Positions 997-14,067 of a stretch of DNA of 21,261 nt are shown here, piece after piece. Position numbers and translations under genes: made by a program. Under the pieces are notes generated by a model, which did not search any database, was not told the DNA's origin, and worked only from the letters and a program-made list of their open reading frames with translations. Source of the stretch: a virus; the IMG/VR virus record IMGVR_UViG_3300006790_000136, positions 1-21,261 of that record. One strand, written 5' to 3'. How positions within the stretch are numbered: position 1 is the stretch's first letter; every line of letters starts with the position of its first letter.

Positions 997-1186
997 CGCT
1001 CAACTCGTCGCGCTTTTTGGCAATGAACTCCTCGTCCGCTTCTGCAAACGGATCGGGGTCACCTGGCTCTCCTGGATCGAGGAAGTGCATCCCCTCGATC
1101 TCCATATGATCGAGATTGAGATAGAGCATCTCCTCGCGTGGACCTTGCGCCACGCTCTCGATGATCAGGCGGTTCAGCTGTTCCAT
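986..1186 (-). CDS. Small acidic unknown protein
   Basis: This 66-aa acidic protein has no family I recognise. It is rich in Asp and Glu, has a Pro-Gly-Asp stretch around residues 38-46, and ends in Asp-Glu-Trp. I chose the ATG at 1186, which shares one base with the stop of the upstream gene (TGATG). A GTG one codon earlier is possible and would add one residue. The tight overlaps on both sides support a real, translationally coupled gene. Confidence 0.7.
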   Translation of the reverse strand: MEQLNRLIIESVAQGPREEMLYLNLDHMEIEGMHFLDPGEPGDPDPFAEADEEFIAKKRDELSDEW

Positions 1187-1602
1187 CACCAGCTACCCCA
1201 CTCGTCGCCGCGGTCGATGTCAGCCAAGGGCTCTACTTCGGCGGTGGCGGAAGGTTCATCGTGACCCTCAAAGAACGAGCTGATCTCTTCGTAAATCTTG
1301 GTTCCAGGCTGCGCCCACTTCGCGCGCCCGAAAGTTGATTGAAAGCCTCTCGAATGAATGAAGGTCTCTTTCTGTTCGAGGCTGTATCCGTTCTTGTGAC
1401 GCTTGATTGCCTCGTCACTGGCCGCGGCTCTGACGTTGCCCTCGCTGCCGTTTGTGCCGCGTTGCATCTGTCCTCTGGCTTCGCGTGAACCGTTACGCTT
1501 GAGAAGGGTACACTCGTTCGTCCCTTGGTCGATCAGCAGCACCAGAACGTAATCTTTCGTGCCGCCCTGATGGACGAATTCTTGAATTTCAACGAAGCGC
1601 AT
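1186..1602 (-). CDS. WGR-like domain protein
   Basis: This 138-aa protein is the first gene of the leftmost transcription unit. Residues about 15-95 resemble a WGR domain: beta strands (KDYVLVLLIDQ), a basic Asn-Gly-Ser turn, a Gly-Gln pair, then a helix and strand ending SDEAIKRHKNGYS, close to the family's closing A...K..GY pattern. WGR domains are known in PARP-type proteins and in bacterial and phage proteins, where they contact nucleic acid; the role here is not known. The C-terminus (about 110-138) is acidic and ends GDEWGSW. The start follows an AGGTGACAGG ribosome site and lies 29 nt after the dyad at 1632-1645. Confidence 0.65.
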   Translation of the reverse strand: MRFVEIQEFVHQGGTKDYVLVLLIDQGTNECTLLKRNGSREARGQMQRGTNGSEGNVRAAASDEAIKRHKNGYSLEQKETFIHSRGFQSTFGRAKWAQPGTKIYEEISSFFEGHDEPSATAEVEPLADIDRGDEWGSW

Positions 1603-1631: not shown

Positions 1632-1645
1632 AGTCATTTATGACT
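1632..1645 (-). promoter_or_regulatory. Dyad motif, copy 1 (upstream of the WGR-like gene)
   Basis: This is a perfect 14-bp palindrome, AGTCATAAATGACT on the minus strand, followed by TACAG. It lies in the 72-nt gap between the primase stop and the WGR-like start codon. Five other gene starts in the window have the same motif at a similar distance. It could be a promoter element, a repressor site or an RNA stem; the sequence alone does not decide. Confidence 0.65.
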
Positions 1646-1674
1646 GACTATTTACGGGAGCGCAAACGCGAATT

Positions 1675-2742
1675 TCACCCAATGCTCAGAAGAAGAGATT
1701 TCATGGGGTCAAGCTTTACAGCCTCGTCGAGAGCTTTCACGGTTTCGGCAACGGTGAGGTCACCTGGATCTTTGTCGCCTGGCGGACGTGCGATCTTGAC
1801 GCGAAAGCCCATCTTCATGATCTCGGTCGCGGTCTTGAGCGCTTTTCGATACGCCATTTCCTCACCATCCCAGAACAGAATGATCTCGCGCGTTCCCCAT
1901 GATTTCAGACGCAGCAGCTTGTTCTTCTGGTCATTGCCGTCGGCGCCTTTTGACAAGTGGACACCGAAAGACCCTACAACCGCCTTGTCCTCGTGATGAG
2001 TCTTCTTGATGTTGACCCATGTGCGAATAACGTCGAACGCGCCTTCACACATGATGACGCTACGCTTGCCCGCGGCGTTTTGACCATTGAACAGAAAGCG
2101 CCCAGTTCCGGGCAGGCCCGGCGGGAAGAGGTATTTACGGTCGCTCTCGCCGGATAAATCACGACCTTGAAAGGTGACCATTTCGCCATCGAGGTCGTAG
2201 ATCGGAATGAGAACGCGCTCACCGAAATACATACCGCCGCGTTCGCCGTCCTTCTTGGTGTAATTGTACCAGCCGTCAGGGCAGTATCGCAGTTTGAAAT
2301 ACTTTGCCGTTTCACCATCAACGCGACGCTGCTTGAGGTATTTCAGATTGCCGCCGTCGGGTGTTGGCAGATCGTACCCGTCTGGCAATTTCCAGTCCTC
2401 ATTGTCGAGAACTTCGGTTTCAAGCTGCGTCGTGCGCTCCGGCCGCCAGCCCATTTCTGAAGCCATGCGTTCGAGATATTGCGCCGTGGCGCGCTTTGAC
2501 CCGTCGAGCTGCGCTTCGGTAAAGGTGAAGATATTGAACGTCGTGCCGCAGGAGCCGTGAAAGCAGTTGCCGAGACCCGTGTCGCGGTTTGCATAGACCT
2601 TCCATTCCGAGCCGTGACAGAACGGGCATTCCTGAATGTTCAGCTGTTCGCCTGACGAGCCGTGACCGATGCGATATTCGACGCCTTCGCGCTCAAGGAC
2701 ATCCTCAAGCGTCAGGTTTTTCAGGATATCTTTAATGCTCAT
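1675..2742 (-). CDS. DnaG-type DNA primase (short phage form)
   Basis: This 355-aa protein makes RNA primers for lagging-strand DNA synthesis. The N-terminus has a zinc-binding module with C39, C42, C60 and C65. Residues about 165-205 match the linker leading into the catalytic core (FGERVLIPIYD, then FQGRDL). The TOPRIM fold follows: MCEGAFD at 231-237 with catalytic E233, LFWDGEE at 289-295 with D292, and GDKDPGD at 322-328. At 355 aa it is far shorter than cellular DnaG (about 600 aa) and lacks the C-terminal helicase-binding domain. The ATG overlaps the upstream stop as ATGA. The partner helicase is encoded upstream at 6328-7638. Confidence 0.93.
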   Translation of the reverse strand: MSIKDILKNLTLEDVLEREGVEYRIGHGSSGEQLNIQECPFCHGSEWKVYANRDTGLGNCFHGSCGTTFNIFTFTEAQLDGSKRATAQYLERMASEMGWRPERTTQLETEVLDNEDWKLPDGYDLPTPDGGNLKYLKQRRVDGETAKYFKLRYCPDGWYNYTKKDGERGGMYFGERVLIPIYDLDGEMVTFQGRDLSGESDRKYLFPPGLPGTGRFLFNGQNAAGKRSVIMCEGAFDVIRTWVNIKKTHHEDKAVVGSFGVHLSKGADGNDQKNKLLRLKSWGTREIILFWDGEEMAYRKALKTATEIMKMGFRVKIARPPGDKDPGDLTVAETVKALDEAVKLDPMKSLLLSIG

Positions 2743-2933
2743 TTCTCACGCACCTCGATGATCATAGACACCTGTTCTTCACCGACAGGGCATATCAGCG
2801 CCGTTGTTTTATGATCGGCCCAAACCATCTTGTAAGAGGGTTCAAGATTGTACTCGCTATTGAAGGCCATTGTGGCGAGATGCCATTCGTCGTGTGACTT
2901 TATGGCATAGATATTTAGCCTCTTATCGCTCAC
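2739..2933 (-). CDS. Small unknown protein
   Basis: This 64-aa protein begins SDKRLNIYAIKSHDEW and is likely a small alpha/beta fold; no family is recognised. It uses a GTG start that overlaps the upstream stop as GTGA and follows a GAGGAGAAG ribosome site. Longer readings with an upstream start run through the neighbouring gene and are less likely. Its own stop overlaps the primase ATG, so it is probably coupled to primase translation. Confidence 0.65.
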   Translation of the reverse strand: MSDKRLNIYAIKSHDEWHLATMAFNSEYNLEPSYKMVWADHKTTALICPVGEEQVSMIIEVREK

Positions 2934-3085
2934 AGCTTCTCCTCTGCGTTTTGAATGACCTGTTGCAGACGGTCGGCCCGAATGCGGTCGCCGCGCGCAA
3001 TGCTGATCGACAACTCCCAAGAGGCTGTCTCAATCAGTCCCTTGATCTTTTGTCGCTCGATCACTTGTTTGATCCATGCGATCAT
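2930..3085 (-). CDS. Small basic helical unknown protein
   Basis: This 51-aa gene was found by following the overlaps. The ATG at 3085 shares four bases (ATGA) with the stop of the gene before it, and the TGA overlaps the GTG of the gene after it. The product begins MIAWIKQVIERQKIKG and is predicted mostly helical, with alternating basic and hydrophobic residues. No family is recognised. Its support is the unbroken chain of overlapping starts and stops and the lack of any other gene covering these bases. Confidence 0.65.
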   Translation of the reverse strand: MIAWIKQVIERQKIKGLIETASWELSISIARGDRIRADRLQQVIQNAEEKL

Positions 3086-3414
3086 CTGTCTGGCCTCATA
3101 TACATTACTGAGTGATAGACCTCTTTGCGCGTCAGAGTTTTCGACTCTTGCGCGTTGACCCAGTTCAGAACCTTGTCAAACGCAGCCCACTGACCTGAAA
3201 TGAAGTCATCACTGACGGTTTCTTTAGCGCAGGGCTTTTCATCCAGCGATCGGTAATGCGGTGACATCGGGATCGGGCAATCGCCTTCGCATTGTGACCA
3301 GTCATCGCCGGAATACTTGCCGCACTTTGGACAGCCTTTTGGCTGATGCAGCTCAGCCTGCTCGGCGCGAAATGCGGCGTCGTTCTCGGCGCACCAACCG
3401 TCTTTCTTTTTCAT
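3082..3414 (-). CDS. Zinc-ribbon-like unknown protein
   Basis: This 110-aa protein has C28, C31, C42 and C46, spaced like a zinc ribbon (CPKCG then QCEGDC). A Trp-rich segment at 75-87 (GQWAAFDKVLNWV) follows, then a basic C-terminus. I chose the ATG at 3414, which overlaps the upstream stop as ATGA and follows a GGAGGAAG ribosome site; a longer frame exists but would run through the 54-aa gene upstream. The function is unknown. A copy of the dyad motif (CGTCAGTGATGACT, 3204-3217) lies inside the gene, but no start codon lies close downstream of it. Confidence 0.7.
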   Translation of the reverse strand: MKKKDGWCAENDAAFRAEQAELHQPKGCPKCGKYSGDDWSQCEGDCPIPMSPHYRSLDEKPCAKETVSDDFISGQWAAFDKVLNWVNAQESKTLTRKEVYHSVMYMRPDR

Positions 3415-3575
3415 TCTTCCTCCAGGTAACTGACTGCTTCGTCCCAGTCGCCCTCGATCCACGCCTTGATCGCCATGTCTCGATCCCAAACGTCCTCGAT
3501 CTTCTCGCGAACCTCTACCAGAAACAGGTCTATCACCATCGGGCGACCGTCTGAGAGTTGAGTTGACTCGGTCAT
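3411..3575 (-). CDS. Small acidic unknown protein
   Basis: This 54-aa gene starts at 3575 with an ATGA overlap on the Lar-like gene and ends with an ATGA overlap into the zinc-ribbon gene. The product is acidic and Trp-containing, with a probable amphipathic helix (IDLFLVEVREKIEDVW) and an EEE terminus. No family is recognised. The matching overlaps at both ends make it credible despite its size. Confidence 0.65.
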   Translation of the reverse strand: MTESTQLSDGRPMVIDLFLVEVREKIEDVWDRDMAIKAWIEGDWDEAVSYLEEE

Positions 3576-4015
3576 TTCTTATCCTTTGTCATTTTATGCG
3601 TCTTGCCGGCCAAATTCATCGCCCATTTCAGATCCTCTTCTGAGGATAGTCCGAACATGCCTGAACCAGAGGCTATGCACTCAAGAGTGCTGTTTGCGGA
3701 TTTCAGGCGCGCTCTGAGCTTGGTGTTGTTTGCTGCGATGTCCCGCGCTTTTTCTGACCAGAACCGCCAGATGTTTGACCCTACTGATGCGTGTCCGCTG
3801 TCCAGTGCGGCTTCAAGATCAGCAATGCGCTTCTCCACGCCTTCGGAAGCCCGCTTGTTCCATTTATCAACGCTTTCTGGGTGATCGGCGGCGATTCCCA
3901 TTCCCGAAAGAATGCAGTCGCCTTGAGATTGACCCTCATGAACGGCCATGTTCGACTTGGTGATAGTCAGTTTCTCACCACAGAAGGGACACGGTTTCAG
4001 AACTGGATGAGTCAT
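3572..4015 (-). CDS. Lar-like zinc protein (restriction-alleviation-type domain)
   Basis: This 147-aa protein begins, within ten residues of its start, with LKPCPFCGEKL. About 40 residues later comes SVDKWNKRA, the paired signature of the Lar restriction-alleviation domain (LKPCPFCG ... WNxRA). Named members in lambdoid prophages modulate type I restriction, but the domain is common in phages and often of unproven function. The second Cys pair of the ribbon is not obvious here: one Cys follows (QGDC). The C-terminal half looks helical. The ATG at 4015 overlaps the HAD stop (TGATG). Confidence 0.75.
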   Translation of the reverse strand: MTHPVLKPCPFCGEKLTITKSNMAVHEGQSQGDCILSGMGIAADHPESVDKWNKRASEGVEKRIADLEAALDSGHASVGSNIWRFWSEKARDIAANNTKLRARLKSANSTLECIASGSGMFGLSSEEDLKWAMNLAGKTHKMTKDKK

Positions 4016-4596
4016 CAGTAGTTGCCCTCTGCAACCTGGCAGCACAGCAGGCCCTTCTCGCGCCACATCTTCGTGTCTTCGATGCGATCTTCGAAGGCGA
4101 GCTTGGGGTCGAACCCGTCCATGCGCGCCTTCTCCAGAAGCTCGCCTTTGACGATGTGACTGAGCCGCCGATCACCGTTCTTGCGCATGTAGAGAACGGG
4201 GCCGGTAATGCCGCCGCTCTTTTGCATGTAGCGCCAGTGATGCGCTGCAAAGCTCCTGATTGGGCATTGCAGATGATCGTCGTAGAGCCAGTTGTAGGTG
4301 ACCTCGCGCTGAGCTTCCGGTCGACCGGTGATGAAGATGACCCGATGATGCTGGCGCAGAAGGCTATAAAGCAGCTCCCATGTCTGCTTGATCGGCGCGT
4401 CTTTCGCGACCAGCTCGTCAGACAGGAAATTGTCCCAGTCCTTCTTGAACGGCTTCTCATAGATCACGTTCGGATCAGGGATGATGTGGTGCAGACGATG
4501 TTTCGCATCTGCCAGTGTACCGTCTATGTCAAATACGCAATCGATGGTTTTATCTCCTCTTTTGAATGCCGACAGCCTCTTCGGGAGACCATCCAC
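4015..4596 (-). CDS. HAD-family polynucleotide 3'-phosphatase-like protein
   Basis: This protein matches the phosphatase half of T4-type polynucleotide kinase/phosphatase. The HAD motif FDIDGTLAD carries the nucleophile Asp and the acid Asp, FITGRP gives motif II, MRKNGDRR is typical of the Pnkp group, and FEDRIEDTKMW followed by GLLCCQVAEGNY closes the domain. It should remove 3'-phosphates from DNA or RNA ends during repair; no kinase domain is present. The start is unclear. The only usual start codon near the domain is GTG at 4596, which overlaps the HNH gene by 47 nt and lacks a good ribosome site. A strong GAGGAG site sits 8 nt before ATC at 4545, exactly where the family would begin. 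Disruption by the HNH gene is likely. Confidence 0.82.
   Translation of the reverse strand: MDGLPKRLSAFKRGDKTIDCVFDIDGTLADAKHRLHHIIPDPNVIYEKPFKKDWDNFLSDELVAKDAPIKQTWELLYSLLRQHHRVIFITGRPEAQREVTYNWLYDDHLQCPIRSFAAHHWRYMQKSGGITGPVLYMRKNGDRRLSHIVKGELLEKARMDGFDPKLAFEDRIEDTKMWREKGLLCCQVAEGNY
4527..4536 (-). repeat. Direct repeat at the HNH/HAD junction, HAD copy
   Basis: GTATTTGACA on the minus strand, encoding Val-Phe-Asp just before the catalytic motif of the HAD protein, is repeated exactly at 5119-5128 at the start of the HNH gene. The surrounding codons are also similar: the HNH gene begins M-D-I-V-F-D, and the HAD frame here reads I-D-C-V-F-D. The likely cause is insertion of the HNH gene at this spot. 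Confidence 0.55.
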
Positions 4597-5137
4597 GCTT
4601 GAGACGCATTTTGAGAGCGCCTCGGGTTATGTTTGCGAACTCGGCCCATTGAACCCAGGTGCGACGATCTCCGTTGACCGTCAGGTGCTTGGTGCATCGG
4701 CGGTTCATAATGTTGTCGATTTTGTCGACCCAGTGGCAATTTTCAGGACTGTAGCCTTTCGAATTGTCCTCTCGATCAAGTTCCTTGCCTTCTGGCTTTT
4801 CTCCCATGTCTGACAGAAAGTTCTCGAATGTCTCCCATCGAGCGCAGTATCCAATTCCTCTGCCGCCGTAGTTTTCATAGGCTGAGTGATTAGGATTTGA
4901 GCATCGCTGCTTCATGCCAACCCATGAATGATAGGTGGGTGAGTTTACCCACTCGCTTGCTCGATTAAGACATCCGCATGACGGGTTAGGTTGACGCTTA
5001 AATACTTGAGCGCGAAGTCTCTTTGTTCCGCCGCATTCACATGTGCAATCTACCCACGTCTCGACATCGCGGTCAGCACTCACAACAGTCAATAGACCTT
5101 TGCGCTGCCCTACCCACCTGTCAAATACGATGTCCAT
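4550..5137 (-). CDS. HNH homing-type endonuclease
   Basis: This 195-aa protein belongs to the common phage family of free-standing HNH endonucleases. An N-terminal Cys cluster (CTCECGG, later SCGC) is followed by WVGMKQRCSNP, YENYGGRGIGYC, RWETFENFLSDMG, LDREDNSKGYSPENCHW and NIMNRR, the usual order in this family. Such enzymes cut DNA at a target in a related phage and spread their own gene. The C-terminal 50 residues contain a likely DNA-binding helix-turn-helix (WVQWAEFANITRGALKMRLKRGWS). Its first six residues (MDIVFD) and its ribosome site appear to be borrowed from the HAD gene downstream. The start is one base after the upstream stop (TGATATG). Confidence 0.85.
   Translation of the reverse strand: MDIVFDRWVGQRKGLLTVVSADRDVETWVDCTCECGGTKRLRAQVFKRQPNPSCGCLNRASEWVNSPTYHSWVGMKQRCSNPNHSAYENYGGRGIGYCARWETFENFLSDMGEKPEGKELDREDNSKGYSPENCHWVDKIDNIMNRRCTKHLTVNGDRRTWVQWAEFANITRGALKMRLKRGWSPEEAVGIQKRR
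5119..5128 (-). repeat. Direct repeat at the HNH/HAD junction, HNH copy
   Basis: This exact copy of GTATTTGACA lies within codons 3-7 of the HNH gene, matching 4527-4536 in the HAD gene. The two copies bracket the body of the HNH gene. Confidence 0.55.
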
Positions 5138-5138
5138 A

Positions 5139-5768
5139 TCAGCTCCAATACCGGTAGATGGTGGGCCGCAGGCTCAGAAACGCCGCGGTTGTCATGTCCT
5201 CGGGCCAGAGCCGAAGATGCTTTATTACGAACCACAGGTGCCACGGTGCCCATGCGATCGCGTCCTTGTGCTCGGGTTTGTCGCGGTAGCAACTCTCCCA
5301 GTATTTCTCGACCCCCAGCGGCATATCGGGGTTTGCCTTCATCAGACCGACGTAGGGGTAGAGAGTGCCAGGGTGTGACAGCCACTCGCTTTCCAGATCC
5401 ATCGTCATGCTGTCGTGCTGCGTCTCATACAAGAAGGCGTCGAGATTGTTGCCGTAGCGGCTCCACTCTTCACGGCTCAGGGCCGGCGTCAGCAGAACTT
5501 TGTCCTCAAGGCCGAACTCGTCGTCGTGACTGACCATCTGGTGAAGCGCAGTGACGGGATTCATCGCCTCGTGGAAGATCAGATTTTCCATCACTTCGCC
5601 GGTTGTCTTGGCAAAGGATTTCACGTCGGCCCGAAAGGCTTCGAAGCGCTCAGGGTTTTCCAGCGCGCCATCATCGTCGAAAGACAACTGTGAGCGGTCT
5701 GCCCGCAGATCCTCGAACACGTTGAGATCGAGACCGTATCCTACGGCCAGGTGCATTCTGATACCCAT
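5139..5768 (-). CDS. Unknown phage protein
   Basis: This 209-aa protein begins MGIRMHLAVGYGLDL. It is acidic, with an aromatic-rich second half (WHLWFVIKHLRLWPEDM near the C-terminus). There is no signal peptide or membrane segment that I trust, and I recognise no family. The start is two bases past the upstream stop, preceded by a purine-rich GGGGATAAG stretch. It is the second gene of the unit that also carries the primase and DNA-end-processing genes, so a DNA-metabolism or host-takeover role is possible but not shown. Confidence 0.75.
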   Translation of the reverse strand: MGIRMHLAVGYGLDLNVFEDLRADRSQLSFDDDGALENPERFEAFRADVKSFAKTTGEVMENLIFHEAMNPVTALHQMVSHDDEFGLEDKVLLTPALSREEWSRYGNNLDAFLYETQHDSMTMDLESEWLSHPGTLYPYVGLMKANPDMPLGVEKYWESCYRDKPEHKDAIAWAPWHLWFVIKHLRLWPEDMTTAAFLSLRPTIYRYWS

Positions 5769-5770
5769 TC

Positions 5771-6040
5771 TTATCCCCAGCTCCCAGATTTGTCGTCATA
5801 TTTCATCTTTATATCGTTGTTTTCGTTAGTGTTTTCAGGAACAGCAAGACTGATCTTCAACCGATCTTCGAAGAAAGAAGCAGGTAGCTCGATGTTGACG
5901 GCCACAGACTGCTCGCCCTCTTGCGCCGTGTAGCCTGCGGGCCTGAAGGCGCTGTTGACATCGTCCACATTCCGAACAGCGCGTACGGAGCCGTCTTTCT
6001 TGACGAAGAGCCGCGCCTTGATTTCAAATGTTTTGCCCAT
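5771..6040 (-). CDS. Small unknown protein, first gene of the primase unit
   Basis: This 89-aa protein opens with beta-strand-like segments (FEIKARLFVKKDGSVRAV) and contains SVAVNIELPASFF and LKISLAVPE, so it is probably an all-beta fold. It ends in an acidic tail, KYDDKSGSWG, related to the Gly-Ser-Trp tails of the small proteins near the left end. No family is recognised. The start codon lies 24 nt after the dyad at 6065-6078. Confidence 0.7.
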   Translation of the reverse strand: MGKTFEIKARLFVKKDGSVRAVRNVDDVNSAFRPAGYTAQEGEQSVAVNIELPASFFEDRLKISLAVPENTNENNDIKMKYDDKSGSWG

Positions 6041-6064
6041 GTGAGCCTCGCGTTTGCTGTGTTA

Positions 6065-6078
6065 AGTCATTTGTGACG
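6065..6078 (-). promoter_or_regulatory. Dyad motif, copy 2 (start of the primase unit)
   Basis: CGTCACAAATGACT on the minus strand is followed by TAACAC. The half-sites differ at the outermost base. It lies in the 75-nt gap between the hairpin at 6090-6109 and the start codon at 6040, that is, terminator first and then this signal, as expected for the head of a new transcription unit. Confidence 0.65.
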
Positions 6079-6089
6079 TACTGATTGAG

Positions 6090-6109
6090 GGGTCGCAAGA
6101 GTGCGACCC
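6090..6109 (-). terminator. Hairpin after the helicase unit
   Basis: A perfect 8-bp stem (GGGTCGCA with TGCGACCC) with a 4-nt loop begins six bases past the stop of the 70-aa gene. On the minus strand it is followed by CTCAATCAG with no U tract, so it is a weak or factor-assisted terminator, or an RNA-stabilising hairpin. Confidence 0.55.
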
Positions 6110-6115
6110 GCCCAC

Positions 6116-6328
6116 TCAGCCGATGGGCTTGATCCACTTTTTACCGCCTCTGTAGCCGTATCGACTAGCCTTTCCGCAGCGATAGCAGTGAGACTGCGGC
6201 ATGCCTCGATAACCGCTACCCCACGTCACATAGAAGGCATGACCTTTGATCGAGCAGATGATTTCGCGCCACAGTTGACCCCATGAAGGGTCAACAGAGG
6301 TGTTTTGAACGTGATCAGGCTTCTTCAT
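6116..6328 (-). CDS. Small Cys-containing protein (DUF1660-like)
   Basis: This 70-aa protein contains ICSIKGHAF and, 20 residues on, SHCYRCGK. The pattern C...GH...C.RCG matches the small phage proteins called DUF1660, which probably bind zinc and have no known function. The ATG shares one base with the helicase stop (TGATG), so it is likely coupled to the helicase. It is the last gene before the hairpin at 6090-6109. Confidence 0.65.
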   Translation of the reverse strand: MKKPDHVQNTSVDPSWGQLWREIICSIKGHAFYVTWGSGYRGMPQSHCYRCGKASRYGYRGGKKWIKPIG

Positions 6329-7638
6329 CAGATGCCACCTTTCCCAAGTACCTTCGTGATGAATGTCGCGGTCGCTAGATCCTGTTCGATGTTCAGGACA
6401 TATCCGCCGGCCATGTTACGCACCGCGGCCATGAACAGACGCGCTTCGCCGTTCTCTTTCTCTTCGTCGCTTGCGTTGATAGAGAACATCGCATCAGCCA
6501 GTCGAACCTTGTTGAAGTCTTCTGCCGCGTGTTCCGCTTTTGCCAGCGAGGCTTTCATGCCATCACGGTTTGACTGAATGGCGGTGATGACTGCGAGGTC
6601 TTCGTCCTTGGCAAGTGAGCGCAGACCCATACCGATCGAGGCGCTTTCTCGAATGGCGTCGTCCTTGTAGACGCGATCTGGGGCCATGATGTCCCAGTAG
6701 TCGACCACGACCTCGTCAAAGATCAGACCCTTTGCCTTGTAATGCTCGACGAGGCGTCTGAGGTCTTTGGGCGAGAATGTCCCTGTGCCGTATTCATGCA
6801 CCTTCATCTTGCCCGCTTTTGCCAGCTTCGTTCGAACGGCTGACTCCACGTCGATGATATGCTTGAGCAGGTCGTTGGTCTTGAAGCCTGACAGGTACGC
6901 ATCGACGCGGTCCATCGTCACTTCGACGGAGTTTTCGAGAGAGACGTACAGGACGTTTTTACCGGCGAGCTGCGCGTTGACCGCGAGGTTCATCAGACCA
7001 AAGGATTTACCCGCTTTCGCTGGGCCGAGAATGACCAGCATTTCTTTGCGCTTGGCCCCGCCACCCAGAGCGTCATCCAGCTCCTTGTAGCCCGTTGTGA
7101 TGCCTGGTTCGATCTTGCCTACCGCAATGTCCTTGCGTCGCTCTGTACGCGCCGTGATGTCGTCTGTGACATCATGCCCGATCGAGCCGTCGTTTGCCGC
7201 AACCTGGAACGCTTGGCTCATGTATTCTTCGATCAGGTCGAAGTCATGCGTATCCATTGCGGGGACCGACTTTTGCATCGCAGCCATGATCGCTTGGTGC
7301 TTTGCAAAGCTGGAGATTTCGTCGATCACATAATCGCGGTCAGACAAGTCTTCCTTGCGCAGCAGCTTGAACGTGTCGATCACGTCGTCCTTTTGATCGG
7401 AACGAATGGTCTTGCGCGCAATGGCATCCTTGATCAGTTTGACCAGAACAACCTGCGACGGCACGGATTTGTACTTGTCCCAGTATTGCTGCGACAGCGC
7501 GACCAGATGCGCCTCGCTTTCGTTCAGGAAATACGAGGGCTCGATCAGCCCTTCTGTGCGGATGTTGAATGTCGGGTCGCGCAGAGACAGCGCTGCGACC
7601 TTGCTTTGGAATTCGTCATCGAAGTCATAATGAGGCAT
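6328..7638 (-). CDS. DnaB-type replicative DNA helicase
   Basis: This 436-aa protein is a hexameric RecA-fold helicase that unwinds DNA at the fork and works with the primase. Residues 178-197 (PGITTGYKELDDALGGG) lead into the Walker A motif GPAKAGKS at 205-212. The catalytic Glu is in VSLENS (E235), Walker B is VVVDYWDIM with D313, and ITAIQSNR at 351-358 corresponds to motif H3. The first 150 residues form a helical N-terminal region unlike the primase domain of T7 gp4, matching a system with separate primase and helicase. The start overlaps the Hfq-like gene's stop (TAATG), so the two proteins are made together. Confidence 0.93.
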   Translation of the reverse strand: MPHYDFDDEFQSKVAALSLRDPTFNIRTEGLIEPSYFLNESEAHLVALSQQYWDKYKSVPSQVVLVKLIKDAIARKTIRSDQKDDVIDTFKLLRKEDLSDRDYVIDEISSFAKHQAIMAAMQKSVPAMDTHDFDLIEEYMSQAFQVAANDGSIGHDVTDDITARTERRKDIAVGKIEPGITTGYKELDDALGGGAKRKEMLVILGPAKAGKSFGLMNLAVNAQLAGKNVLYVSLENSVEVTMDRVDAYLSGFKTNDLLKHIIDVESAVRTKLAKAGKMKVHEYGTGTFSPKDLRRLVEHYKAKGLIFDEVVVDYWDIMAPDRVYKDDAIRESASIGMGLRSLAKDEDLAVITAIQSNRDGMKASLAKAEHAAEDFNKVRLADAMFSINASDEEKENGEARLFMAAVRNMAGGYVLNIEQDLATATFITKVLGKGGI

Positions 7639-7865
7639 TAGTCTCGCACCTCACAGACACTTTCAATGGCGCTTTTGAAGATCAGGCTGGGGTGTCCGGT
7701 CTCGTCTTCAAGCAGAATGGTATAGCGGTCGAAAGATTTCAGATTGCCTTTATAGGTGGCCTCGTCTGTGGTGTTTACCCAGATGCTCTTCCCCACAAGC
7801 TTGCTGAGATATTGCTCATGACCCCAAGGCCGCGGGATGCTGAGCTTTTGTCGTTTCTTTTCCAT
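7638..7865 (-). CDS. Hfq/Sm-like RNA-binding protein
   Basis: This 75-aa protein resembles Hfq, a ring-forming Sm protein that binds small RNAs and mRNAs. The helix HEQYLSKLVGK is followed by strands ending GNLKSFDRYTILLED (compare Hfq GQIESFDQFVILL, with Asp46 equal to the conserved Asp40). FKSAIESV at 63-70 stands where Hfq has YKHAISTV. The loop before the last strand is two residues longer than in E. coli Hfq. The Tyr-Lys-His proximal-pore signature is changed to Phe-Lys-Ser, so RNA specificity may differ. There is no long disordered tail. It leads the helicase unit, with a GGCAGGAGAGAAC ribosome site and a dyad 17 nt before the start. Confidence 0.78.
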   Translation of the reverse strand: MEKKRQKLSIPRPWGHEQYLSKLVGKSIWVNTTDEATYKGNLKSFDRYTILLEDETGHPSLIFKSAIESVCEVRD

Positions 7866-7882
7866 GTTCTCTCCTGCCTAAC

Positions 7883-7896
7883 AGTCATCACTGACT
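7883..7896 (-). promoter_or_regulatory. Dyad motif, copy 3 (upstream of the Hfq-like gene)
   Basis: AGTCAGTGATGACT on the minus strand, a 5-bp half-site dyad with 4-nt centre, overlaps the stop codon of the gene before it and lies 17 nt before the start of the Hfq-like gene. There is almost no room for a conventional promoter between the genes, so if this is a promoter its upstream part lies in coding sequence. Confidence 0.6.
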
Positions 7897-8673
7897 GAGT
7901 AATGTTTTCTTGATATCGCGCATTTGCTTGACCGTGTCGAGTGATAGGACGCGCACGACCTCTGTCTCTCGAATGAGCCTCAGATCGTAGCATAAGCGCG
8001 CCAGTGCGATATTTCGATCCGGCCTGTTGCGCACCTCATTGATCAACCACTTGGAGCATGCCTTCTGGTTGCTGCTGCCGACCCAGGCGTCTGCGTGATA
8101 GTGCGAGTGCTTGGGCAGCCGAAGCTTGATCGTGTTTCGCTTTTCAAAGGCACGCTGTCCCGAGATCATGGTTGACGCCTCTGTCAGCATGTTCAGCGGC
8201 GGCAGGTCCAAATCTGCGAGATACGGGTTGTTCGATTTCCACTTGTCGAAGCCGCGCTCCTGCATGAAGTAATTGAACGAGGCATCGAAATAGCTGTCGT
8301 ATGGGCAGCCCAGCTGATCGACGAGGTGCATACGGTTCAGGGTCGATACAATCGTGCGCGCAGGGCGATTGTAGAGGCTTCTCTGTGCGTTCTTGGGCAA
8401 GTCGCTACGTCCACTGGCGGGACGCCCGTAGAAGCGCTTGAAAGCGCGTCTGTGCGCTTCGTTGTATTCGTGAATAAACACGTATGAGCGCAACACCGGA
8501 TGGATGTGACGATAATCGAACCAGCACTGGTGGATACGCTTGCGTTCGGCTTTGACCATGTCCTTGCGCCAGAACTTATACATCAAGCCTTCGAGTGTCG
8601 TCCAATCGAGTTCTGACTGGACGACATCTTTGAACAGATCGTTAGCCGTCTGTGATGAAGGATGGGAATTCAA
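7888..8673 (-). CDS. Unknown basic phage protein downstream of phoH
   Basis: This 261-aa basic protein is of unknown function. It contains an aromatic/basic helix run (MYKFWRKDMVKAERKRIHQCWFD begins about residue 31 and is given here only as its first residues' location), then YVFIHEYNEAHRRAFKRFYGRP and conserved-looking SHYHADAWVG. The start is uncertain. ATG at 8724 would overlap phoH by 83 nt with low-complexity sequence; TTG at 8673 follows an ACGAGGG site and keeps the protein-like segment DLFKDVVQSELDW; ATG at 8583 has a GAAGG site but drops that segment. I prefer 8673. It is the second and last gene of the phoH unit. Confidence 0.65.
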   Translation of the reverse strand: MNSHPSSQTANDLFKDVVQSELDWTTLEGLMYKFWRKDMVKAERKRIHQCWFDYRHIHPVLRSYVFIHEYNEAHRRAFKRFYGRPASGRSDLPKNAQRSLYNRPARTIVSTLNRMHLVDQLGCPYDSYFDASFNYFMQERGFDKWKSNNPYLADLDLPPLNMLTEASTMISGQRAFEKRNTIKLRLPKHSHYHADAWVGSSNQKACSKWLINEVRNRPDRNIALARLCYDLRLIRETEVVRVLSLDTVKQMRDIKKTLLSQ

Positions 8674-9433
8674 ACTGTTGGCCCTCGTCGCTGTCTGCAC
8701 TGTCGATGTCAGTGTCATACGCATCGAGAATTAGCCGGACGAGGCCGTGCCTGACGATGTCATCCCGCGTGAATTCAACTGAACCGACTGTGTCTAGATA
8801 GCAGATACGCTTGAACCCGTCAATCAGTCCTGACTTAGTATTTGATGGAAGCATGCACTGCTTTGGGTCGCCGTCAATGGCGTATCGTGCGCCCTCGCCC
8901 AAGCGTGTCAGAAACATCTTCATTTCTTCGACGGTGGCGTTCTGCGCCTCGTCAAAGAGAACCATGGACGGCTCGTCAAAGCTGCGGCCCTGCATGAAGT
9001 TCAGCGGTACAATCTCGATCTTCTCGGTGCGCATCAGATATTCGAAGTGACCGTGGCCCAGGCCGTCGTTGAACCCCTGCCCGTAGGCTGCGATGTAGGG
9101 CGCCATCTTCTCTTCCATGGTCCCTTTCAGAAACCCGATCGGACGACCGGCCTCAACCGCGGGGCGCGTGAGATAAATCTTCTCGATGTCTTTCTTCAGG
9201 AGCATGTCGGAGGCAACCCGCGCCGCGACGTATGTCTTGCCAACCCCTGCCGGCCCAATCCCGAATGTGATCTTGTTGTGACGCAGCGAGGAAATGTATT
9301 CCCGCTGTTTCGCAGTCTTGGGAACGAGAGGAGATTTCTGCCGCGCCGGAGCTTTGGGAGCCATATCGTCTACCAACCGAAGATTGGTAATCTGATCTTG
9401 ATGGCGGGGTTTGGTTTGCTTCCGCTTGGACAT
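8642..9433 (-). CDS. phoH: PhoH-like ATPase
   Basis: This 263-aa protein has the PhoH P-loop fold. Walker A is GIGPAGVGKT at 58-67, then LTRPAVEAGRPIGFLKG at 88-104, a family hallmark, Walker B VLFDEAQN at 158-165 and GDPKQ at 188-192. The family binds nucleotide and is linked with RNA metabolism; it is very common in marine phages, where its job is still unclear. The first 40 residues are basic and probably disordered. The ATG at 9433 has an AAGGAG site 7 nt upstream. It leads its own transcription unit, preceded by a terminator at 9551-9568 and the dyad at 9466-9479. Confidence 0.93.
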   Translation of the reverse strand: MSKRKQTKPRHQDQITNLRLVDDMAPKAPARQKSPLVPKTAKQREYISSLRHNKITFGIGPAGVGKTYVAARVASDMLLKKDIEKIYLTRPAVEAGRPIGFLKGTMEEKMAPYIAAYGQGFNDGLGHGHFEYLMRTEKIEIVPLNFMQGRSFDEPSMVLFDEAQNATVEEMKMFLTRLGEGARYAIDGDPKQCMLPSNTKSGLIDGFKRICYLDTVGSVEFTRDDIVRHGLVRLILDAYDTDIDSADSDEGQQFEFPSFITDG

Positions 9434-9459
9434 AAGTAACTCCTTATAATGTCTCGCAT

Positions 9460-9488
9460 AGTATAACTCATTCCTGAGTGTTTTTGAA
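9460..9488 (-). promoter_or_regulatory. Possible promoter of phoH
   Basis: On the minus strand, TTCAAA (9483-9488) and TATACT (9460-9465) are spaced by 17 bp, an acceptable but imperfect match to a bacterial sigma-70 promoter. The dyad at 9466-9479 fills the spacer, so a bound protein could repress or activate. The same geometry is not found at the other dyads. Confidence 0.4.
9466..9479 (-). promoter_or_regulatory. Dyad motif, copy 4 (upstream of phoH)
   Basis: ACTCAGGAATGAGT on the minus strand is a perfect 5-bp dyad with a 4-nt centre, here with C and G exchanged at the second position compared with copies 1 and 3. It lies 32 nt before the phoH start codon. Confidence 0.65.
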
Positions 9489-9550
9489 CAAGACTATGTT
9501 ATTGACACTCGGAAAGATTATCCGTCGGTAGGTGATCCTCAAACGACGAA

Positions 9551-9568
9551 ACGGCCCCGAAGGGCCGT
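9551..9568 (-). terminator. Intrinsic terminator after the phosphoesterase gene
   Basis: A perfect 7-bp GC-rich stem (ACGGCCC with GGGCCGT) is capped by a TTCG tetraloop and followed on the minus strand by TTCGTCGTTTG. It starts five bases past the phosphoesterase stop codon. This is the clearest terminator in the window. Confidence 0.85.
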
Positions 9569-9573
9569 CTGTC

Positions 9574-10974
9574 TCAGTCTTTGAAGATTTTCTCATCCGC
9601 GGTTCGGAAGTAATACTGTCCACCAAGAACGCAGTGATCTTGGATCGGAATGTATTCAAACACGGATTGGCGAGTTTGCGTGTCGCAGTGGACGACCATG
9701 ATGCCGTTCTGCCAAATCTCGCCATCCATGAAGTCTGCCCGCCGACGCTGGCCGCCGCCCATCTGGTGAAACTCGCATGCGCCGAAGAACGGGTTGAAGA
9801 AGGGCCAGACCTCATGTTTGTGGTAGTGGCCGCCCCAGCCTGGAATGCGCAGCTTGCGGCGCTCTGGATAGTGGCAGCTCAGCAGGCAGTCCCAGTATAT
9901 CTTGAAGTTCCGCGACAGCTCCTTCTTCACGTCAGATTCAGTGAAGGCTTTGAGCGATGCCTGACCGGTGAAGTTGACCTCATAGCGGTCCAGCCCGAGC
10001 AGCTGCGGGATGTCCATGCCGTGCAGATCGCAGAGCAAGACTTTCAGGGCCGGTGTTTGCTCGCCAAGGTGACGGAACAGCCGGTATTCGTGGTTGCCTT
10101 CGATGAAGTCCAGCTGTGCGTCGGCGTTGTCCTCGCGCAGCTCTTCGAGCAATTTGTGGTTCCAGTGGATCTCGCTCATGACATCGAACTCGCGCGGGTC
10201 CGAGGTGTATTTGCTGAAATCCGCCAGGTCAAAGAAGTCGCCGTTCATATTGATCACGTCAGGCTGAATGCGACGGTTGGCTTCGACAAACATGCGGCGC
10301 ACGAAGGGGTCGCATTTGGTCCCGTGAAAGTCCGTGCCGACGAGGATCGTCTTGAAGCGCTTGCCGTTGTCCGGCCGCTCATACTTGCCCGCATAGGAGC
10401 GCTTCATGTCGGTGACGCGCTGCATTTCATCTTTCGAGGCATGCTTGCCAATGGCGCGCTCGATCCCGTGAGCATGGCGGCTCAACTCAAGATCGGCTTG
10501 TCGGCGGAATTCAGAGAATGAACCGAAATATCGGTTCCATGTGCTGTCGCTGATCGAGCTGTTGTTGCGGAACAGGTTGCGGGTCATGTGAACGCGGTGA
10601 CCTGCCTCGTCTGACAGCATGTCTGCAATGGATCGCAGGTGCTTGATGCAGTCGATATCCGTCCAGTCTTCGCGATACTCGCGCACCTCGTCAGACTTCG
10701 GAACGCGGCGGCCCAGGTTGTCGACCATTTGACCAGGCTGAAGGACTTCCTCTTTCTCGACGCGGTCTTGATCGCGTCCAGCTGCAACACGGGAGCCGAT
10801 GGTCTTGAGGCCGTTCTCGTGGTCCTTGTTACGCCGGCGGATTTCAGAGACGAGGCTCTTGGCGCGACTTAGGGATAGACCCGCCTCCTCTGCAACATCT
10901 GACATCGTGGGGAAGGCGACAATGTCATTGTAGATGTCGATGAAACGGTTGGTCTTCTTGAGATTTCGGCCCAT
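9574..10974 (-). CDS. Calcineurin-like metallophosphoesterase with DNA-binding N-terminus
   Basis: This 466-aa protein has three parts. Residues about 10-48 look like a helix-turn-helix (IVAFPTMSDVAEEAGLSLS). Residues about 108-163 match the homing-endonuclease-associated repeat: a helix CIKHLRSIADML, then TWNRYFGSFSEFRRQADLE. Residues 207-400 carry the catalytic motifs: TDFHG (D215, H217), NGDFFDL (D246), EGNHEYR (N294, H295), CHYPE (H368) and GGHYHKH (H383, H385). The two-metal centre should hydrolyse phosphodiesters; with DNA-binding modules attached, a nuclease is more likely than a protein phosphatase, but this is inference. It has a GGGAG site before the ATG and a terminator right after the stop. 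Confidence 0.85.
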   Translation of the reverse strand: MGRNLKKTNRFIDIYNDIVAFPTMSDVAEEAGLSLSRAKSLVSEIRRRNKDHENGLKTIGSRVAAGRDQDRVEKEEVLQPGQMVDNLGRRVPKSDEVREYREDWTDIDCIKHLRSIADMLSDEAGHRVHMTRNLFRNNSSISDSTWNRYFGSFSEFRRQADLELSRHAHGIERAIGKHASKDEMQRVTDMKRSYAGKYERPDNGKRFKTILVGTDFHGTKCDPFVRRMFVEANRRIQPDVINMNGDFFDLADFSKYTSDPREFDVMSEIHWNHKLLEELREDNADAQLDFIEGNHEYRLFRHLGEQTPALKVLLCDLHGMDIPQLLGLDRYEVNFTGQASLKAFTESDVKKELSRNFKIYWDCLLSCHYPERRKLRIPGWGGHYHKHEVWPFFNPFFGACEFHQMGGGQRRRADFMDGEIWQNGIMVVHCDTQTRQSVFEYIPIQDHCVLGGQYYFRTADEKIFKD

Positions 10975-10995
10975 ATGAGGCTCCCGTGTTGAGGC

Positions 10996-11070
10996 TCAAA
11001 GAGCGATTAGTAAAATGAGGATGCTGAAGGTCAGTGCGATCATTGAGATAAAGGCGTGGTTTGGGGTCAT
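10996..11070 (-). CDS. 24-residue single-span membrane peptide
   Basis: This tiny gene encodes MTPNHAFISMIALTF and a further nine mostly hydrophobic residues. Nearly the whole peptide is one membrane-spanning helix. Three signs support it: its ATG overlaps the holin stop as ATGA, a GGTGA ribosome site lies 6 nt upstream, and a dyad copy sits 25 nt upstream. Its place after the holin and endolysin suggests a holin partner or regulator, but no homology can be claimed at this length. Confidence 0.55.
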   Translation of the reverse strand: MTPNHAFISMIALTFSILILLIAL

Positions 11071-11645
11071 CGCAGATCACCGTGTTTGTTCATCCACTCA
11101 CTGATGACTGCATTCTCTTCGCGCGTGGAAAGATCGGCTTCGATGTCACCCGCGGCGATGTTGACCCGCTCGATCTCGGCGCCCGTGTCTTGCACGTCGT
11201 CGATGATCTTGCGCGTCTCAACCACGGCTTTGACGCCATTGATCTGCTTTTGCATATCGAAGGTCTGAACCTTGGCCTGATGACGGCCGCCAAAGTAGAA
11301 GGCGATGATTGCGCTGAGCAGCCACCAAAGAGGTTCAGGGACCAATGCAATGCCGGTCATGCGCGAGGCAAACCACACGGGGTCCACCATTGCAGAGACG
11401 AACATGCCGATGATCCCGAATGCCATCAGCGGACGCGGGATGCGGTTCAAACCGTCGATTAGGCGATCGAACCAGTTGGTGCGGTTCTCGCTTTGAAACT
11501 CGCGACCGAATTGAGCTTGAGCCCCGCCGGTCAGCTGATGATCTCGGCGGGCCTGGCCTTCACGGCTTGTGCGAAAGAAACCCGCGGTGTCGGTGATAAC
11601 GTTGCGCCCGCCGCCGAACAGGGCTTTGAAGATGTCTCCTACCAT
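11067..11645 (-). CDS. Holin (GTA 3-TM type)
   Basis: This 192-aa protein should form the inner-membrane lesions that time lysis and release the endolysin. The segment from about residue 74 to 120 matches the GTA holin family: LNRIPRPLMAFGIIGMFVSAM (first span begins at RPLM), a hydrophobic WFA..MTGIALVPEP segment, and LWWLLSAIIAFYFGGR. The N-terminus is Gly/Arg rich and the C-terminal 70 residues are a charged helix. The start at 11645 is one base past the endolysin stop (TAAGATG); a longer frame exists but overlaps the endolysin gene. Confidence 0.82.
   Translation of the reverse strand: MVGDIFKALFGGGRNVITDTAGFFRTSREGQARRDHQLTGGAQAQFGREFQSENRTNWFDRLIDGLNRIPRPLMAFGIIGMFVSAMVDPVWFASRMTGIALVPEPLWWLLSAIIAFYFGGRHQAKVQTFDMQKQINGVKAVVETRKIIDDVQDTGAEIERVNIAAGDIEADLSTREENAVISEWMNKHGDLR
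11096..11109 (-). promoter_or_regulatory. Dyad motif, copy 5 (inside the holin 3' end)
   Basis: AGTCATCAGTGAGT on the minus strand lies in the last codons of the holin gene, 25 nt before the 24-aa peptide's start codon. It fits the same half-site and 4-nt spacing as the intergenic copies. It could give the peptide and the phosphoesterase a start of their own. A chance match within coding sequence is possible. Confidence 0.45.
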
Positions 11646-11646
11646 C

Positions 11647-12267
11647 TTACCACCGTGCCGTGCGGGCTTTGAACTGTTCACGGGTCATATGATACCGCGG
11701 GTGCATGAACTCTTCGGCGCGCTTGATCCAGCCGCCCTTCCCGCCTGCGCGGGTCCGAGCATACTTGCGCGACGCGGGCCGACGATCAGCGATGCGGAAA
11801 TAGTAATTGCGCCGTTCGACGCCGTATGCGTCTTCCATGGCGCTACCCATCTGCTTGTAGACGGCTTCCACCTTGCGCAGCGTGATTGGGCCGATCGACC
11901 CGTCTGCCTTGATGTCGGGCAGGGTGCGGTCGATGGTGTTGCACATGCGTTGCAGGATTTTGACAGCGTTGTTGCCCGCGTTCACCTGCATGTCGAAGAC
12001 GGTTGCATGCAACTCGGCCGGCAGCTGGTCGATCTTGGGCTTGAAGAAGTAATGACGCAGGAAGATTTGAACGGCCTGATCGACGGTCAACAGACGCACA
12101 TCGCGGGTATCCACGTCGCCGTCTTTGTCCAGATCCATACCAAGGGCGCGCATCGTGTGGATTGTCACGCCGTATTTGGTTGCCCCGCCTGGATCATCAG
12201 GGTCGTTCACGTAGCCGCCTTCGCGGGAGACGATGGAATGGGCAATGCTTTCGATGGTGGGTTTCAT
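11647..12267 (-). CDS. Endolysin, GH108 N-acetylmuramidase
   Basis: This 206-aa enzyme cuts the peptidoglycan glycan chain at lysis. The GH108 signature SREGGYVNDPDDPGG contains the catalytic Glu16, then TKYGVT, a typical order. Residues about 115-190 match the C-terminal peptidoglycan-binding domain, with DGSIGPITLRKV and ERRNYYFRIADRRP ... GGW. Residues 45-56 (DLDKDGDVDTRD) are a perfect EF-hand-type calcium loop inserted in the catalytic domain. There is no signal peptide, so it relies on the holin. The start at 12267 follows a TTGAGG site 7 nt after the upstream stop; longer readings run into the upstream gene. Confidence 0.92.
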   Translation of the reverse strand: MKPTIESIAHSIVSREGGYVNDPDDPGGATKYGVTIHTMRALGMDLDKDGDVDTRDVRLLTVDQAVQIFLRHYFFKPKIDQLPAELHATVFDMQVNAGNNAVKILQRMCNTIDRTLPDIKADGSIGPITLRKVEAVYKQMGSAMEDAYGVERRNYYFRIADRRPASRKYARTRAGGKGGWIKRAEEFMHPRYHMTREQFKARTARW

Positions 12268-12274
12268 GATAGCC

Positions 12275-12859
12275 TCAAGAAGATTGAAGGACGTAGCAAA
12301 TAGGGTCGAGCTGATCGAACGCATCCTCGCCCCCGCAGCGGTAAGTGACGGCGACCGTGATGCACACGCGACCTGGAAACAGACCGTCTGGAGGCAGAAA
12401 GGTGGCCTCAACCGGTGTCAGGTCTGTGCCGAACTGGCGAATCGGGGAAAGAAGAGTCCCAGGAAGCGGAATGTTGCGCTCGTCGGTGAACAAAGGGATT
12501 GCGGTCTTCGCGAGACAGCTGGCCCCGTGACTATTTCGTTTGACCAGATACCGCGCCGTCACGGGCTCGTCGGGAGTGACCGGCTCTTTGACGTATGAGA
12601 ACACTGGATCTCGGTAAAGAATGCGGTCAGCGCCGGTTATCTGGTTGAGAGTTTTGATGATTTCATCGGTTTGCTGTTTCGTCGCCAGCTCATTCACCCC
12701 CAGAAAGTCTCGCGCGCTGTCTCTGATCACATCCTTCTTGGCTTCAAATACGACCGTGACGATCCCGAATGCGATGGTCCACGAGGTCAGAATGATGATG
12801 GTGATGTCGCGAAGCTTGGATGCGATGCTGGAAACGGAAAGTCCGTATGGGAGGTTCAT
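12275..12859 (-). CDS. Membrane-anchored unknown protein of the lysis block
   Basis: This 194-aa protein has one N-terminal span (about 19-38, ITIIILTSWTIAFGIVTVVF), then a charged region and a soluble C-terminal part with four Cys residues, which would suit disulphide bonds in the periplasm. It lies directly upstream of the endolysin and is the first gene of the unit. An inner-membrane spanin or a lysis regulator would fit the position, but there is no long coiled coil and no nested lipoprotein gene, so I do not assign it. Its start lies 18 nt after the dyad at 12878-12891. Confidence 0.72.
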   Translation of the reverse strand: MNLPYGLSVSSIASKLRDITIIILTSWTIAFGIVTVVFEAKKDVIRDSARDFLGVNELATKQQTDEIIKTLNQITGADRILYRDPVFSYVKEPVTPDEPVTARYLVKRNSHGASCLAKTAIPLFTDERNIPLPGTLLSPIRQFGTDLTPVEATFLPPDGLFPGRVCITVAVTYRCGGEDAFDQLDPICYVLQSS

Positions 12860-12877
12860 GGCTATTCCGCTCTGCTA

Positions 12878-12891
12878 AGTCATTAATGAGT
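12878..12891 (-). promoter_or_regulatory. Dyad motif, copy 6 (head of the lysis unit)
   Basis: ACTCATTAATGACT on the minus strand is followed by TAGCAG. It lies just downstream of a good sigma-70-like promoter (12893-12921), so the expected transcription start falls inside the dyad, as in a repressor operator. Confidence 0.65.
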
Positions 12892-13529: not shown

Positions 13530-14065
13530 TGAAGGTTGTCCAGTTCAGTCTTGAGGTGAAGAAGTGCTGCATCAATGTCAGATTGATCTTGTGCAGCGTC
13601 GATGGCGGCTCCCGCTTCGAGCCGCAGGGCTTCGATGATCGGCCCGACATAGCGCCAGAGCGACGCCTTGTATTCGAACAGATATGCGACCTGATAGGCT
13701 GTTTGGCCCGTGATGCCGATTTCGTGCGATATCCACGGAAAGTCGGTCAGGTCTTCTGGTTCAGGATCGAGGGCGAGATAGCGTTTCGCCTCCAGCTCCT
13801 TGTCGAGATAGATCATCCCCTGTCCAGGTAAGTCAGTAATGAACGACTGTCTGGCGCGCGTCAAGACAGACTTCACCTCTTCTCGCGCGTCGGCGCGACG
13901 AGGCTCCATGTCTACTTCGGCCAACGCCCCGTCCACCACTTGAAAAGAGGCCAATGGACCATCCGGTTCGTTCGCCTCAATGAAGTCACCAGCGGGCGCG
14001 CCCGCGTCTGGCCCGCCATAGGTGTAGAGAGGGTTGCCCGTTTCTGGGTCGTAATAAATACGCAT
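13526..14065 (-). CDS. Tail-fibre-associated protein, possible assembly factor
   Basis: This 179-aa protein starts two bases after the fibre stop. Residues 1-20 (MRIYYDPETGNPLYTY) and a strand-rich first third resemble small proteins encoded after phage fibres. The second half is helical, with QGMIYLDKELEAKRYL and then a long Ala-rich helix to the end (AAIDAAQDQSDIDAALL). This layout, with a Q-M-Y-x-x-K-E-A-x-x-Y helix, is common in tail-fibre assembly or chaperone-like proteins of many phages. A minor fibre part is the alternative. An imperfect dyad copy lies inside it at 13831-13844. Confidence 0.6.
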   Translation of the reverse strand: MRIYYDPETGNPLYTYGGPDAGAPAGDFIEANEPDGPLASFQVVDGALAEVDMEPRRADAREEVKSVLTRARQSFITDLPGQGMIYLDKELEAKRYLALDPEPEDLTDFPWISHEIGITGQTAYQVAYLFEYKASLWRYVGPIIEALRLEAGAAIDAAQDQSDIDAALLHLKTELDNLQ

Positions 14066-14067
14066 GG

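Follow-up and report, generated by a model that had tools for sequence, protein, structure and literature searches.

Why should a short palindrome recur ahead of many of the genes of a virus, and which protein, if any, reads it? The question is raised by IMG/VR record IMGVR_UViG_3300006790_000136 (21,261 bases, one strand read; hereafter the window), in which the 14-bp dyad (A/C)(G/C)TCA-N4-TGA(C/G)T repeatedly precedes start codons. The dyad is very probably the putative operator of a phage-encoded XRE (lambda-repressor-like helix-turn-helix, HTH) repressor that would hold phage-plasmids of the RepC/SSU5 type in the plasmid state. The sequence-only reading of the window had offered three options, of which an operator for one regulator is supported by the relatives, the position of the sites and the covariation of regulator and site; an RNA stem and a phage-specific promoter are both disfavoured, the latter because the position of the dyad with respect to sigma-70-like boxes varies and its sequence changes with the XRE protein.

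An abundant dyad in the window and in relatives

In the window the pattern has 12 strand matches against 0.53 expected (the largest of 100 shuffles had three), and its exact form occupies seven places, six of them directly ahead of a start. All six sites listed in the sequence-only reading are present and enriched over shuffles, with some corrections of detail. The site at 11096 is not in a gap between genes; it falls within a holin open reading frame (ORF, 11067-11681) and has the weakest promoter context of the six. The site at 3204-3217, which had been called a near match inside a gene, does lie inside a gene and is an exact match on the minus strand (CGTCAGTGATGACT). The near match at 13831-13844 (two mismatches to AGTCA-N4-TGACT) is indeed one, but is not without a nearby start, being followed on the minus strand by an ATG (13814-13816) in frame with the ORF 13526-14164. 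To say that the dyad heads every transcription unit is too strong, because the window is a fragment.

The window has the replication module of the RepC/SSU5 type, in the common order phoH, next gene, Hfq-like gene, DnaB helicase, primase and WGR. Its helicase is 37-48% identical to those of annotated phages and phage-plasmids; among the matches listed, the nearest annotated phages are Pseudomonas nickie-like, Rhizobium RHEph10-like and Stenotrophomonas phages, then those of the SSU5 type, and the nearest plasmids are from Methylobacterium, Cupriavidus, Sinorhizobium, Aeromonas, Shinella and Acinetobacter, with numerous enterobacterial plasmid records lower in the list. Methylobacterium oryzae, pLM21S1 (LM21) and RHEph10 all run from phoH through the next gene, helicase and primase to WGR, with extra small genes in some, and beyond the module M. 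oryzae and RHEph10 also carry repC and an HTH gene. The window looks like a fragment of a phage-plasmid related to this type, and the plasmid replication and partition genes of the element would be expected outside the 21-kb fragment.

A search of viral contigs for a composite pattern that included a -10 box gave 33 stretches; the 27 records examined, a choice biased by the motif, have 1-37 perfect dyads each. The scan of relatives that the sequence-only reading had proposed found the dyad abundant also in records chosen by their helicase and without the motif: AGTCA dyads number 40 in Methylobacterium AMS5, 28 in M. oryzae and 12 in Cupriavidus, with three in RHEph10 and one in Shinella. One count of 11 helicase-chosen records gave zero AGTCA dyads in eight, several of which carry AGTAA-N4-TTACT instead. 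Many copies of one site per genome are found in the AGTCA form (12-40 in AMS5, M. oryzae and Cupriavidus) and in the AGTAA form (LM21 and Aeromonas). Shuffled sequences contain 0-0.3 dyads, and six bacterial genomes or metagenome-assembled genomes (4-7 Mb) contain 0-5 each, the five of Azospirillum including four on one contig. When spacers from N0 to N8 were compared, only N4 was abundant; the 6-8 copies with N8 spacing in each of AMS5, Cupriavidus and RHEph10 are due to a wider half-site.

A survey of 5-mer dyads in 19 sequences, made without a preset motif, ranked AGTCA-N4-TGACT first in nine, AGTAA-N4-TTACT first in LM21 (32 copies) and Aeromonas (12) and second in Shinella (nine), and AATCA-N4-TGATT first in RHEph10 (seven). 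The window and the fragments G002 and G003 were too short for its count threshold, G001 yielded a different result, and Pseudomonas phage hairong had nothing of the dyad form. As far as sequence can tell, all these spellings are one architecture, T-N-AGTNA-N4-TNACT-N-A, with a symmetry that reaches 18 bp. In SSU5, TAAGT-N8-ACTTA and similar sites rank below another dyad. SSU5 (NC_018843, read as L097 and L098) also has AAACA-N3-TGTTT 14 times against 0.18 expected, mostly at 80-95 kb and often directly ahead of small genes, perhaps for a second regulator.

The reversed control TCAGT-N4-ACTGA is enriched in several genomes (up to 13 copies in G015 and 18 in AMS5) and was considered as a second class of site; much of the enrichment seems to come from the wider symmetry and a 4-bp periodicity of half-sites, though not every case is accounted for by the wider half-site. 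In G015 (IMGVR 3300048856_000029), which has 13 such sites against 17 dyads, the wider half-site accounts for part only.

Position relative to genes and promoters

Sites lie 0-100 nt upstream of an annotated start in 27 of 37 cases in M. oryzae and 35 of 45 in AMS5. Random placement gives means of 4.8 and 5.9, respectively (maxima 12 and 13 in 1000 trials), and random placement in noncoding DNA gives 16.9 and 21.0 (maxima 26 and 31 in 300 trials). Although 88-90% of these plasmids is coding, four sites (M. oryzae) and nine (AMS5) are within coding sequence. The expectation that the dyad would be found near starts rather than inside genes is borne out in two annotated Methylobacterium plasmids.

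Gene heads were compared with one mismatch and mixed half-sites allowed, and with estimated starts. A dyad is present at the head of phoH in 12 of 16 sequences, as predicted for corresponding gene starts of relatives, and at that of the helicase in 10 of 19; the phoH gene of the window itself counts as a miss, its site differing at two bases from the consensus used. The operon-internal primase has no dyad at its head (0 of 18), nor do the holin (0 of 3) or GH108 (0 of 3) genes. Dyad sites also stand at the annotated WGR genes of M. oryzae (94456) and AMS5 (6344), and the fragment G002 has a mixed dyad, AGTCATAACTTACT, ahead of a weakly similar gene (32% identity) in the WGR position; no dyad precedes the corresponding gene of G001. 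G002 further matches the window in having TGTCACAACTGACT after a similar hairpin at 4251, although the 89-aa gene of the window had no BLAST match there, and a dyad ahead of the Hfq-like gene, which G001 does not have there. Both G002 and G001 have a one-mismatch site at a similar distance ahead of the gene that follows phoH.

A -10-like hexamer begins 5-13 nt ahead of the dyad at 15 of 75 oriented sites, versus none of the 75 in an equally wide control stretch, and lies downstream of it at 12 of 75, in a wider stretch that had no control of its own. At some sites the dyad takes up exactly the 17 bp that separate two boxes identified by eye (e.g., AMS5 29909 and 44167; M. oryzae 58701). The dyad has, as was claimed, no constant place relative to sigma-70-like boxes. 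In pAMS5a (L142-L144), a promoter-like string, GAAACGCC ... CGCTATAAC or CTGCTATAAC, is repeated upstream of several dyads (e.g., 86859, 90716 and 101030), and might be that of a phage-encoded sigma factor.

A candidate XRE regulator

An XRE gene lies near repC in M. oryzae and AMS5, and homologues were found in 13 of 19 sequences, which include every non-fragment sequence with abundant dyads; none was found in hairong, which itself has no dyads. The surroundings of the gene were read in M. oryzae, AMS5, RHEph10 and Cyrano, an SSU5-type phage-plasmid of E. coli. The proteins have a Cro/C1-type HTH domain: of six compared with Pfam HTH_3, that of M. oryzae passes, four match more weakly and that of AMS5 does not match. 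The G005 protein, as modelled by AlphaFold (pLDDT 90.4), consists of helices only, and helix 45-52 lies at the recognition position. Its fold matches are weak (HigA, Z 9.2; P22 c2, Z 8.2; C.AhdI, Z 7.8; 434 Cro, Z 7.2), Z values of this size being able to reflect merely a common arrangement; the best sequence match in the PDB is C.BclI (E 0.0048), and the best Foldseek E value is 4.8e-3. The Cyrano protein CYRAN_45 matches the regulator profile with 75.6 bits and adjoins a cobT-like gene, from which it is read outward. In the available part of the Cyrano report it is listed as a putative repressor and is transcribed in the lysogen, 10-fold over the prophage background (PMC9928086).

Covariation of regulator and site

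The residue just before the recognition helix (K43 in G005) tracks base 4 of the half-site. Where it is Lys or Arg, AGTCA is in the majority in 19 of 19 records counted, among which G050, G051 and G053 have merely one or two sites; where it is Asn, AGTAA is in the majority in 10 of 10 (AGTCA:AGTAA of 0:32 in LM21, 1:9 in Shinella, 0:3 in G037, 0:29 in G038, 0:17 in G039, 0:27 in G040, 1:10 in G041, 0:17 in G042, 3:5 in G011 and 0:20 in G057). These counts leave out Lys/Arg bacterial genomes with background-like numbers (G031, 3:1; G033, 0:0; G034, 0:0; G036, 2:0), fragments or partly counted records (L188, L189, L199, L216, L218, L230 and L234/G021), L226 (no regulator extracted), and G035 and Cyrano (Asn, no strict sites). 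Also left out are the Gln rows, which have AGTCA or AATCA (G014, 29:0; RHEph10, 3:0; G043, 2:0; G044, 3:0; G045, 6:0) except for Aeromonas (0:12), and single rows with Ala (Cupriavidus, 12:0), Ser (G046, 1:0) or Leu (G049, 2:5). A Pro beside the key residue was considered as the determinant of AGTCA and rejected: G057 (L225), with Asn-Pro-Ser, has 20 AGTAA and no AGTCA sites, which indicates the first residue rather than the Pro. On the tree the Asn label takes three changes (gains or losses), at least two of them forced by well-supported branches; G057, which branches outside a supported group of eight Asn rows, gives the cleanest separate example, with its exact placement open.

Proposed mechanism and alternatives

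A dimer of the XRE repressor, about 130-150 aa in length, would bind T[AC]-AGT[C/A]A-N4-T[G/T]ACT-[TG]A at operators that head many transcription units and number up to about 40 in a genome. The bound repressor would block RNA polymerase from one of three positions: over the start region right after a -10 box, within the 17 bp that separate -35 from -10, or next to the promoter. One virus-made protein would thus probably switch the virus off during its quiet life as a plasmid in the bacterium, and the regulator gene of the window itself would lie outside the 21-kb fragment.

Several observations weigh against this repressor-operator reading. Of the 75 oriented sites, 48 have no -10-like box in either stretch scanned. 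Neither the window nor the fragments G001-G003 contain a regulator homologue, and none was found in the first 100,000 of the 103,299 bases of SSU5, which has related sites and may, at a guess, be a repressor-less relative. G001, with a helicase 74% identical, has no perfect dyad, although seven one-mismatch sites stand against 0.6 in shuffles; a replacement dyad was sought there, and the only one found, AATGA-N2-TCATT (four copies), is not at gene heads as the dyad is. Contigs such as L190 and L193-L196 encode the XRE protein without dyads nearby, and in only 12 of 59 rows (some records doubled) do the 400 nt ahead of the regulator gene contain a perfect dyad, so autoregulation of the XRE gene is unsettled. 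The covariation rests on few independent changes, because many rows are related, and Aeromonas as aligned breaks the rule (Gln at the key column, AGTAA operator, 0:12); it is either a true exception or misaligned, its row having a two-residue insertion in a gapped alignment.

The rival accounts explain less of this pattern. An RNA hairpin of 5 bp, closed by a tetraloop and located near the ribosome site, to which the Hfq-like protein of the phage might bind, for instance, would suit sites that often lie shortly before start codons, and outside the lineage of the window the second base pair is mismatched in just 0-3 sites per genome, which a symmetric DNA site predicts likewise. That pair is, however, mismatched at two of five sites in the window and eight of 29 in G006 (G..G or C..C in both), and at one of four in G003, and a DNA site for a dimer explains both the mismatched and the kept pairs. 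Some sites are flanked by a predicted -35 and a predicted -10 box, or precede a -10 box, and would therefore be untranscribed and unable to act as RNA; the symmetry extends to 18 bp, and the site shifts along with a DNA-binding protein, all of which leave an RNA element with very little credence.

That the dyad is a promoter specific to the phage, or is bound by a transcription activator or phage sigma factor, is improbable, if slightly less so. Such a role would place the sites at the heads of transcription units, as observed; some relatives encode a sigma factor, and activators of the MerR type occupy the spacer between -35 and -10. Against it, distances to starts or boxes vary, the palindrome has no direction, and the co-varying protein is of the XRE type, with repressors and antitoxins as its nearest folds. 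A partition or DNA-organising site, like parS, for the ParB of the phage-plasmid would likewise be a repeated and dispersed palindrome, and ParA and ParB genes are present; the strong tie to gene starts, at the same gene heads across genera, and the covariation with an XRE helix make such a role most unlikely.

Sites and predicted targets in the window

Table 1. Dyad sites of the window and the genes that they are predicted to control
Feature	Position	Strand	Context
Dyad AGTCATTTATGACT	1632..1645		Ahead of WGR-like gene (start at 1602)
Exact minus-strand match, possible minor site	3204..3217		Inside an ORF
Dyad, minus-strand CGTCACAAATGACT	6065..6078		After hairpin, ahead of 89-aa gene (start at 6040)
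Dyad	7883..7896		Ahead of Hfq-like gene (start at 7865)
One-mismatch dyad	8822..8835		Inside phoH, ~105 nt ahead of next gene (7888-8724)
Dyad ACTCATTCCTGAGT	9466..9479		Ahead of phoH (start 9433), immediately before TATACT box, minus strand
Dyad	11096..11109		In 3' end of holin ORF, ahead of 24-aa reading frame
Dyad	12878..12891		One base past TATGAT box (minus strand); ahead of lysis-unit gene (start 12859)
Two-mismatch dyad, possible weak site	13831..13844		14 nt before in-frame ATG
WGR-like gene, predicted target	1186..1602	-	Place matches annotated WGR genes of relatives; no Pfam match
Hfq-like gene, predicted target	7638..7865	-	Pfam Hfq, E 4.2e-7
phoH, predicted target	8642..9433	-	Pfam PhoH, E 2.6e-63
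First gene before GH108 endolysin and GTA-type holin genes, predicted target	12275..12859	-	No Pfam match

In AMS5, the small gene before the DnaB helicase (L142:9163-9444) is labelled in the plasmid table as the efflux gene OprJ; the label looks wrong because the place fits an Hfq-like gene. Elsewhere in the window, 3572-4066 has a weak match, slightly under the Pfam cut-off, to the restriction alleviation protein Lar, and a single reading frame of 2346 aa (14068-21108) occupies the right third.

Relation to known systems and significance

Phage P1 is likewise a phage-plasmid in which one repressor, C1, has 22 operators dispersed over the genome, according to the available part of PMC8546580; its operator is an asymmetric 17-bp site, whereas the dyad is symmetric over 14-18 bp, and thus not of the P1 kind, and the candidate protein is of the XRE type. 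Cluster A mycobacteriophages (L5, Bxb1) have as many as 30 sites per genome, with repressors and motifs that co-diverge and define immunity groups (PMC6550527, in the part available). Their stoperators have a core of 13 bp that usually points one way relative to transcription and usually lies away from promoters, whereas the dyad is symmetric, near gene starts and not an oriented 13-bp site. The repressor domains of lambda, 434 and P22 c2, the HigA antitoxins and the controllers C.AhdI and C.BclI share the XRE fold with weak sequence similarity, and at 130-150 aa the regulator has no room for a lambda-type peptidase domain. A further parallel is Cyrano, in which a homologous putative repressor has a cobT-like neighbour; no operator is described in the accessible part of PMC9928086, and Cyrano has no strict AGTAA or AGTCA dyads, with three relaxed forms in the 22 kb read. 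A review of phage-plasmids, in its available part, gives regulators for other groups and none for the SSU5 type (PMC11652158), and among the open-licence papers listed, no title or abstract beginning describes an operator or a tested repressor of SSU5-type phage-plasmids.

Such elements are common: CYRAN_45 has a match, with an E value of 1e-5 or better, in 802 of 72,556 plasmid records. With a candidate regulator whose operator is legible, their lysogeny, induction and mutual exclusion become directly testable, repressor-less fragments can be assigned to an operator class, and nature offers an example of a repressor that shifts jointly with dozens of operators. By a narrow balance, we favour the view that SSU5-type phage-plasmids of alpha-, beta- and gammaproteobacteria share this shut-off system, the key residue setting the operator class and much of the immunity group; if so, immunity between SSU5-type elements would be readable from sequence.

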